64,000 nucleotides of DNA from Bacteroidia bacterium (GTDB lineage Bacteria; Bacteroidota; Bacteroidia; Cytophagales; JAAEPT01): positions 1-64,000 of the forward strand of contig JAUIJC010000009.1 in NCBI GenBank assembly GCA_030431525.1, in the 5' to 3' direction. Shown here in pieces: positions 1,847 to 63,901 of the stretch. Each line of letters opens with the position of its first letter. Position 1 is the stretch's first letter. The notes under the pieces were generated by a model. It saw only the letters and a list, made by a program, of their open reading frames with translations, did no database searches and had not been told where the DNA came from. The position numbers were made by a program, and so were the translations under genes.

Positions 1847-1994
1847 CTAAGCGAAAGAGAAATAATAAACTGATGTTCAGCTCAATGAACAACTCAGGAC
1901 AATTTCATAAACCCAAATCCCTCCAAGCAAACTTCACCATCCCTATATTTTTCCCTAAGTTGGAGCTGATTACTAACCTTTTTTCCCTTTTAAA

Positions 1995-45633: not shown

Positions 45634-45793
45634 GCAAAAGAAAAACAATAAACTGACCCAGTCGGTTTGTTCTTTTGCCTGCCGTTCGTAGCCACTTGAT
45701 TTGCGATAGCTACGGCTATCCCTTCATCAACTTGCTACGAACAGCGAACAAAATAACTGCGCCTTAGTGGGCCAGTTTATCATTTCACTTTCG
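45634..45793 (+). ncRNA. Palindromic structured leader element, copy 1
   Basis: About 160 nt with nested inverted repeats around an apical hairpin GATAGC-TACG-GCTATC (45705-45720), a C(UACG)G tetraloop on the plus strand. A second stem pairs GTTCGTAGC (45683-45691) with GCTACGAAC (45735-45743). TTGAT pairs with ATCAA, and the outer arms (AATAAACTG / CAGTTTAT) close the structure. It begins about 7 bases after the predicted transcription start and ends 17 bases before the start codon of the SH3 lipoprotein gene. Aligned with copy 2 at 52258 it shows compensatory changes. Class unknown; on the minus strand the tetraloop is lost. Confidence 0.6.
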
Positions 45794-45810
45794 CAAACCA
45801 CACTTTCAAA

Positions 45811-52037: not shown

Positions 52038-52080
52038 AGAGAAGAGAAAAGACGCCTAAATTTAGCATCAAAAGGTAGTT

Positions 52081-52143
52081 GTACAATGTATCATGTACAA
52101 TGATTACCTCACGACTGTAATCATTGTACATAATACATTGTAC
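52081..52143. repeat. 26-bp inverted repeat, GTACAATG family
   Basis: Arms at 52081-52106 and 52118-52143 match as reverse complements at 25 of 26 positions; each contains GTACAATGTAT and GTACAATGATTA. A related, imperfect element lies at 62520-62585. The remaining 110 bases before 52258 contain no gene. Confidence 0.8.
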
Positions 52144-52257
52144 TTAATACAATAATGTCCAGTAGTCTGATACTTGATACGGGCATCCTCTTTCAGGTTT
52201 TCAGTGAACTAAACAAAGTCGGAAAAAAAAGGGCTTTCGGCAAATGAGAAATCCTTT

Positions 52258-52419
52258 GCAAAAGAAAAACAATCAACAAAACAGAGTCGACTTGTTCTTT
52301 TGCCCACTGTCCATATCAAATTGATTTACGATAGCTACGGCTATCCCTGCATCAATTTGACATGAACAGTAGACAAAATAACTTCGTCTTGGTTGTTCAG
52401 TTGATTATTTCTCTTTCAC
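52258..52419 (+). ncRNA. Palindromic structured element, copy 2
   Basis: Homologue of the 45634 element. The apex GATAGC-TACG-GCTATC (52330-52345) is unchanged. The next stem TCAAATTGAT / ATCAATTTGA is perfect here. Further out, ACTGTCCAT (52306-52314) pairs with ATGAACAGT (52362-52370) with one mismatch. The outer arm AATCAAC / GTTGATT keeps pairing while differing in sequence from copy 1. It ends 41 bases before the arsR start, on the same strand. No -33/-7 promoter pair was found in front of it, so whether it is transcribed is unknown. Confidence 0.55.
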
Positions 52420-62746: not shown

Positions 62747-63835
62747 ATGCACCTCCAGTCACTCCGCCTATTCAACTTCAAAAACCATCGGGAAGCCGAA
62801 CTCGATTTCTCGGAAGGATTGAACTGCATTGTGGGGGACAATGGCACGGGCAAAACCAACCTCTTGGATGCCATTCATTTCCTATGCCTGACCAAAAGCG
62901 CACTTGGATTGAAGGACAAGCAGTTGATTCTGCATGGGGAGCAATTATTTTTGGTCCAAGCCAATGTGAAAGATGCAAACTATGAGCATTCTCTTCGGGC
63001 GGGATTTCAGGAGGCGAAAAAACAGTTTCTGTGGGACCAAGTGCCCTACGACAGGTTGAGCGACCATATCGGCAAGATTCCCATCGTGTTTGCCGCACCC
63101 AATGATGTGGACCTGATTCACGGTGGCAACGAGGAGCGCAGAAAGTTTTTCGATGCCCTGCTCTCGCAATTTGACCCCTATTACCTTCGGGACGCCATCC
63201 GCTACAACCAAAACCTGAAACAGCGAAACGCCCTTTTGCGCCAATTCGCCGAGCATGGCCGTCCAGACGCCGATCTGTTGGAACCTTATGACCATCAGTT
63301 GGCCACCTTGGGAAAGGCGCTTTACGAAAAGCGAAAAGCATTGACCGAGGAATTCCTTCCACATTTCCAGTCCGCCTATAATGAATTGAGCGGAGGTCGA
63401 GAAGAGGTCAATCTCAGCTATCGTTCCCATCTGGAAAACCCTGACTTTCTAAAAGAATTACAGGAATCCCACCTCAAAGACACCGTTTTGAAATACTCCA
63501 CGATGGGCATTCACCGCGACGCCTATCGTTTCAACATCAACGGCAAATCCCTCAAACTCTACGGCTCCCAAGGACAACAAAAGTGTTTTGTGACGGCCCT
63601 CAAGCTGGCCCAATTCCATATTTTGGAGGAACGCACTGGCAAAAAACCATTGCTGTTACTGGACGATATTTTCGACCGCTTGGACGAGCATCGCACCAAA
63701 AACCTCCTTCAAATGGTGACTGAAGGACGCTTTGGTCAGGTCTTTTTGACGGACGCCAACCCCAAACGTTCACAGACGCTTTTTGAGGAATTGGACCCGA
63801 AGCCAAAGGTTTTTGAGCTACCATTGCATTCGTAG
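62747..63835 (+). CDS. recF: DNA replication and repair protein RecF
   Basis: 362 aa. An SMC-like ATPase that loads RecA at gaps. FKNHREAELDF (about residues 11-21) is followed by Walker A GDNGTGKTNLLDAIHFL (about 31-47), then RNALLRQFAE, the signature LYGSQGQQKCFVTALKLAQ (about 275-293) and Walker B LLLDDIFDRLDEHR (about 301-314). Length is typical. The stop codon (TAG, 63833-63835) lies inside a REP palindrome, exactly as in the acyltransferase gene at 25.7 kb. The gene is divergent from pdhA. Confidence 0.96.
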   Translation: MHLQSLRLFNFKNHREAELDFSEGLNCIVGDNGTGKTNLLDAIHFLCLTKSALGLKDKQLILHGEQLFLVQANVKDANYEHSLRAGFQEAKKQFLWDQVPYDRLSDHIGKIPIVFAAPNDVDLIHGGNEERRKFFDALLSQFDPYYLRDAIRYNQNLKQRNALLRQFAEHGRPDADLLEPYDHQLATLGKALYEKRKALTEEFLPHFQSAYNELSGGREEVNLSYRSHLENPDFLKELQESHLKDTVLKYSTMGIHRDAYRFNINGKSLKLYGSQGQQKCFVTALKLAQFHILEERTGKKPLLLLDDIFDRLDEHRTKNLLQMVTEGRFGQVFLTDANPKRSQTLFEELDPKPKVFELPLHS

Positions 63836-63901
63836 AGACAAGGCACCGCCTTGTCTCAATCGCATTATTTGTTTTAGCCAAGGCAATGCCTTGGCTCTAC
63901 G
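63832..63901. repeat. REP/BIME pair at the recF stop codon
   Basis: GTAGAGACAAGGC ACC GCCTTGTCTC (63832-63857), a spacer, then AGCCAAGGC AAT GCCTTGGCT (63876-63896) closing with CTCTAC. The outer GTAGAG and CTCTAC are complementary. It is the only sequence between recF and the next gene, apart from a few A residues. Confidence 0.8.

Follow-up and report, generated by a model that had tools for sequence, protein, structure and literature searches.

A mobile hairpin element of about 160 bases in Bacteroidota with a fold selected on one strand

Two copies of a long palindrome lie in the window, the whole 64,000-nucleotide stretch analyzed here from a Bacteroidia bacterium, and they raise the question of whether the sequence is a leader RNA of the neighboring genes or a mobile element whose fold is maintained. 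Both copies that the original prediction had placed in the window were found, with the apex GATAGCTACGGCTATC identical between them; the start of copy 1 at 45634 stood, and its end was moved from 45793 to 45794. The two copies are 78.5% identical over 163 columns, and paired double changes between them exist, far beyond chance. The features of the window are listed below, with scores from R1, a covariance model of the minus strand.

45634..45794, minus strand (the structured strand): mobile hairpin element copy 1, 161 nt, R1 172.7 bits
45634..45651, plus strand: left terminal inverted repeat of copy 1, GCAAAAGAAAAACAATAA, pairing with 45777-45794
45777..45794, minus strand: right terminal inverted repeat of copy 1, GCGAAAGTGAAATGATAA on the minus strand
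45705..45720, minus strand: apical stem-loop of copy 1, GATAGC-CGTA-GCTATC, with the TAGC..GCTA apex conserved in the family
52258..52419, minus strand: mobile hairpin element copy 2, 162 nt, R1 163.8 bits
52258..52275, plus strand: left terminal inverted repeat of copy 2
52402..52419, minus strand: right terminal inverted repeat of copy 2
52330..52345, minus strand: apical stem-loop of copy 2
1851..1868, plus strand: isolated terminal repeat GCGAAAGAGAAATAATAA, left over from a third copy, with no partner end nearby

With R2, a model built solely from 38 sequences of other families, copy 1 scored 114.8 bits on the minus strand versus 46.9 on the plus strand and copy 2 scored 119.5 bits, and nowhere else in the window was a match significant (the two had E = 9.7e-22 and 8.6e-21, the E-values of R1 and R2 being rough). 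A separate long inverted repeat at 52080-52145 (GTACAATGTATCATGTACAATGATTAC ... GTAATCATTGTACATAATACATTGTAC), about 110 bases before copy 2, is possibly another small palindromic repeat. Weak R1 matches (23 bits) at 984-1026 and 63831-63901 are probably ordinary terminator-like hairpins.

Mobility and position relative to genes

Copies in the genome of origin (4.24 Mb, 75 contigs) were sought by blastn, pattern and covariance-model searches. The element, which had been described as two-copy, is present there in 49 full-length copies of 160-162 bp with paired ends and no ORF, besides the lone end at 1851-1868, and deletion forms of 48-55, 82 and 104 bp lack the middle. The ends are imperfect inverted repeats (GCRAAAGWRAAAYAATAA). 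When the flanks of 44 copies were compared at an offset of exactly 3, the three positions were identical in 36, 37 and 36 copies, and an exact 3-mer target-site duplication, mostly TTA or TAA (TWA), was found in 25 of the 44, compared with 8.3 expected and a maximum of 19 in 2000 shuffles. The clean duplication has been lost in both window copies. Neighboring copies in Microscilla are separated by exactly 3 nt, and back-to-back copies in Arenibacter and in a Chitinophagales MAG by 2 nt. In Saprospira grandis, the CTAG site of an empty repeat unit has a single TA, and in a filled unit a TA stands on either side of the element. The paired termini and the 3-bp target-site duplications demonstrate that the element is mobile and MITE-like. 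It has the short, non-coding form with terminal inverted repeats and the target-site duplication (3-bp TWA, or TA in the CTAG class) of a MITE, and ends common to an autonomous insertion sequence (IS) were found in two other genomes, G483 and G463, but not in its own.

Coreless copies with both ends number about 8 against 49 complete ones in the genome of origin. Forms of about 50 bp that contain only the terminal repeats exist, one of them flanked by TAA/TAA, indicating that movement does not strictly depend on the core. Four 51-bp forms there (L089, L092, L093 and L087) consist of the two ends only; L089 and L092 have the interior AAGCCGACTGGG in common and possibly represent a mini-family of their own. 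One copy in that genome (L097:2054-2320) is split by a different palindromic element of about 210 bp with the ends AGGGCAACC..GGTTGCCCT. Back-to-back arrays with one common target duplication, sometimes in opposite orientation (L270:1499-2248, L158, L137, L288 and L282), look as if existing ends attract new insertions.

Relative to neighboring genes, whose orientation was taken from longest-ORF calls, the copies lie in intergenic gaps at a median of 64-70 nt. In window-plus orientation, the own-genome copies were distributed as ++ 12, -- 12, -+ 19 and +- 6, and in structured-strand orientation 90 other copies were distributed as ++ 31, +- 26, -- 19 and -+ 14. In the window, copy 2 ends 41 nt upstream of what is probably the start codon (ATG, 52461) of an ArsR-family gene, and both copies face the downstream gene with the weaker-folding plus strand. 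The suggestion of a new leader RNA is therefore not supported: a 5′ leader would occupy a consistent position and orientation upstream of genes, whereas the copies lie on either side of genes in inconsistent orientation. The other suggestion, a fold-preserving mobile palindrome, is supported by the target-site duplications, the 49 copies and the phylum-wide covariation described below.

Selection on one strand of the hairpin

Consensus folds were computed from alignment A1, which consists of the 49 own-genome copies. The consensus fold (alifold) reached -60.0 kcal/mol on the minus strand versus -12.2 kcal/mol on the plus strand, and single copies folded at a mean of -79.0 versus -57.1 kcal/mol, with the minus strand better in 48 of 49. 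The relevant loop had been taken to be a plus-strand C(UACG)G of the UNCG type; we rejected this hairpin, because the plus strand folds far less stably, with broken pairs, and the selected loop is GATAGC-CGTA-GCTATC on the minus strand. At positions that are mostly Watson-Crick paired, departures read on the minus strand were G.T in 137 cases, A.C in 14 and other mismatches in 40. Since strand-symmetric mutation would yield G.T and A.C equally, this excess identifies the minus strand as the selected one. On the terminal branches of the copy tree, where changes were assigned by parsimony on short sequences, Watson-Crick pairs changed to G.U 63 times and to A.C 12 times, even though G>A is commoner than C>T at unpaired minus-strand sites. 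The 24 youngest branches showed a G.U:A.C ratio of 12:2 together with 12 other mismatches, suggesting that selection there may be weaker. The bias was independent of insertion orientation and of the transcribed strand of the neighbors, and stood at 14:1 in copies whose structured strand is antisense to both neighbors.

In three sets of copies from outside the genome of origin, the structured strand was again the more stable one (29 of 29, about 24 of 26, and 53 of 57 copies); loci from minus-strand matches must be reversed for this count. With DNA energy parameters the minus strand was likewise favored (-42 versus -33 kcal/mol), so that stability does not separate RNA from single-stranded DNA. 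Compensatory changes together with G.U pairs tolerated on one strand, the signature of a structured RNA, were thus found, and these results show that a rod-shaped hairpin over the full length of the element is kept by selection on one strand only. Neither a double-stranded cruciform nor template switching can produce a strand-biased excess of G.U.

Homologs, conserved core and differing ends

A first pattern search of genome contigs found no match, and neither did blastn of the copies against 58 relatives; only the covariance model reached homologs. R1 detected full-length homologs in seven other genomes of the order Cytophagales, to which the window belongs, from four other families, one genome having 40. 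The 38 homologs from other families have a median identity of about 47%, and 85.7% of their cells pair versus 55.9% in shuffled alignments, with a covariation score of 0.693 versus 0.179 shuffled and 0.11-0.16 slid. Outside the order, R2 in turn found copies in 11 genomes, which belong to the same class or to three families from other classes. For 61 further sequences that had no part in training, pairing reaches 84.4% of cells versus 53.7% shuffled, and covariation was 0.70 versus 0.14 on a score devised in this analysis. Further copies with covariation in other Bacteroidota, and arms that keep their pairing instead of diverging independently, agree with the original prediction that the fold itself is under selection.

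Because a palindrome alone can score against a covariance model, it is important that letters are shared too. More than 118 contigs contained the pattern GCATAGCCRTAGCTAYGGN{8,16}AACG, versus about 1 calculated by chance, and 33 of 51 copies had an AGGC, absent from the query pattern, at the same fixed position. The family core reads AGGC / GCATAGCC-RTA-GCTAYGG / AACGMNG, within the consensus aTTTTtt..tta..caAGGCaAaatttt.a.GCATAGCCRTAGCTAYGGtt..aaattTTAACGaaG...aa...aAAA; the named loci were picked by a pattern fixing part of the apex and the AACG letters. Homologs of the same length and fold were found in other Cytophagales families, other Bacteroidota classes, Chlorobiota and Endozoicomonas. 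Outside Bacteroidota, the pattern occurred in an isolate, Endozoicomonas ascidiicola, and in Chlorobiota, as well as in MAGs called Sulfurimonas, Deltaproteobacteria, Gemmatimonadetes, Acidobacteria and Arcobacter, which may be misbinned. A single core match in viral contigs (L342, from IMG/VR) lies at a contig end. As had been surmised, no described RNA class matched: Rfam 15 returned nothing for the element in the window or, at family thresholds, near copy 1, and 12 diverse copies gave no match at E<=0.05. A literature search by words and by core sequence, with subscription journals and preprints outside its reach, returned no description of the core. These may be a previously uncatalogued family of elements of about 160 bases across Bacteroidota and sporadically beyond, for which an earlier description is possible.

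The terminal sequences, by contrast with this core, form several unrelated sets that differ between lineages. Among 88 placed copies, the target was TWA in 38 and CTAG in 12. On a tree of the cores, which is weak with its 80 columns, the best topology has eight changes between the TWA and CTAG end classes, and at least two are forced by well-supported branches. In G483, an IS of 858 bp, whose IS5-type transposase frame contains one in-frame stop, shares its 18-nt end with the elements there, and in G463, an IS of about 1.2 kb with a frameshifted IS630-type frame has the GTGCTGCGTCAAG ends common to the elements there, both type names resting on our own reading of protein sequence and target sites. 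The target duplication of the element likewise corresponds to that of these two ISs. The element itself is not an IS5 or IS630 insertion sequence: its 160 bp leave no room for a transposase ORF and only the ends match. Conversely, those two ISs lack the internal hairpin core.

The transposase search covered the DDE_Tnp_1 and Y1_Tnp families. In the genome of origin, 7 DDE_Tnp_1 and 3 Y1_Tnp loci yielded no autonomous partner, and none of the lone ends or of the seven DDE_Tnp_1 loci inspected fits an autonomous parent. G479 and G507, with several copies each, had no DDE_Tnp_1 match. The three Y1_Tnp (RAYT-like) genes of the genome of origin (L084, L085 and L086) are not near an element copy. 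Mobilization by RAYT was rejected, as no copies lie in the 13.7-20 kb around these genes.

How the element may spread

We favor, as the probable explanation, a non-autonomous element moved by a DDE transposase that matches its ends, with a single-stranded fold, most likely RNA, needed for its own spread. Each copy would be a MITE-like insertion of about 160 bp whose paired termini are recognized by a DDE transposase encoded elsewhere, the class of enzyme being suggested by the ISs with matching ends in two genomes. Insertion would occur at TWA with a 3-bp duplication or at CTAG with a TA duplication, as set by the ends of the lineage. The element would then be read through into a folded strand. 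From the bias toward one strand, the abundance of G.U pairs and the conservation of loop letters, we infer that it works as a single strand, most likely an RNA. The weakest step is the next one, from a selected fold to a fold that aids transposition: the strand would most likely serve the spread of the element rather than the regulation of host genes, as suggested by a bias independent of neighbors, the lack of a consistent gene orientation and the scarcity of coreless forms. As for the molecular role of such an RNA, the core may, for example, bind a conserved RNA-binding machine and thereby capture a transposase that usually acts in cis. A bolder form of this proposal, which we advance tentatively and with some doubt, is that one cross-phylum lineage of hairpin RNA hijacks unrelated DDE transposases, its transcript working in trans and its ends changing to suit the transposases that each host offers.

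Bacterial MITEs are commonly regarded as transient remnants of insertion sequences that underwent deletion, and the element might accordingly be a recent internal-deletion derivative whose palindrome was perfected by template switching or gene conversion without selection. Terminal repeats, target duplications and a high copy number are what any MITE would be expected to show; yet template switching repairs toward Watson-Crick pairs and cannot favor G.T on a single strand, and elements with unrelated ends have the same length, fold and core throughout the phylum at an identity of about 47%, so that this account is already contradicted and very improbable. That the selected molecule is single-stranded DNA, with the minus strand folding in replication or excision and a transposase acting on the hairpin as in IS200/IS605 or attC, we regard as unlikely. 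Strand-specific selection independent of the neighbors' transcription, the inclusion of the terminal stem in the fold and the greater stability of the minus strand as DNA would all suit it, but the clean duplications (3 bp or TA) and the inverted ends indicate a DDE enzyme acting on double-stranded DNA, and RNA better accounts for the positions at which a G.U-type pair is fixed in 80-85% of copies. The own-genome Y1_Tnp genes also lack flanking copies, and leading and lagging strands were evenly represented (12 versus 14 in four complete genomes, a rough hand count with the record start assumed to be the origin). IS200/IS605-type elements make no target duplication, and the clear duplications here rule against such an element.

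A host-level role, in which copies are kept because their transcript stabilizes, attenuates or shields neighboring mRNAs as in ERIC, NEMIS or BIME, also seems quite improbable. Intergenic placement close to genes and a tandem excess of ++ over -- (31:19) outside the genome of origin speak for it, as do bacterial MITE transcripts known to act on mRNAs (PMC2229807, PMC3049150). The own-genome tandem orientation is, however, exactly 12:12, the overall bias is not significant, and the G.U:A.C bias is equally strong where the structured strand is antisense to both neighbors.

Several bacterial MITEs resemble the element in part. RUP, BOX, ERIC and NEMIS each occupy narrow hosts (PMC2229807, PMC3049150, PMC10969869). 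RUP, BOX and SPRITE of Streptococcus pneumoniae (PMC3049150) are likewise small, non-coding, interspersed intergenic repeats with terminal inverted repeats and predicted conserved transcript structures, and RUP ends match IS630-Spn1, much as the ends of the element match ISs; they are confined to a few streptococci, whereas the element keeps one fold and a conserved core across a phylum with several unrelated end types, and strand-specific covariation has been measured for it. ERIC, NEMIS (Correia) and YPAL share the form of 100-200 bp palindromic mobile repeats with a long stem-loop transcript, which for the element is predicted; they differ in their TA target, one set of terminal repeats per family and restriction to a genus or family, and the review PMC2229807 records no cross-phylum core. 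REPIN/RAYT, IS200/IS605 and integron attC sites also experience selection on one folded strand, but the element has target duplications, no RAYT association and no GTAG or attC core letters, and it occurs as dispersed single copies without conserved end boxes. Eukaryotic Alu/SINE RNAs offer a looser analogy, as non-autonomous structured RNAs that parasitize the enzyme of another element; DDE DNA transposases are proposed here, with no evidence of retrotransposition.

Throughout a phylum and beyond, the family has retained its length, its fold and its loop sequence, yet its transposon ends are exchanged. A fold maintained over the whole length with swapped ends suggests mobile DNA that needs an RNA to spread. 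It also adds a predicted structured-RNA family missing from Rfam and scattered through many Bacteroidota genomes. If the folded strand is RNA, whether an RNA aids DNA transposition in trans becomes a testable question, and an element transcript acting in trans would, if true, be a bacterial counterpart of SINE RNAs.
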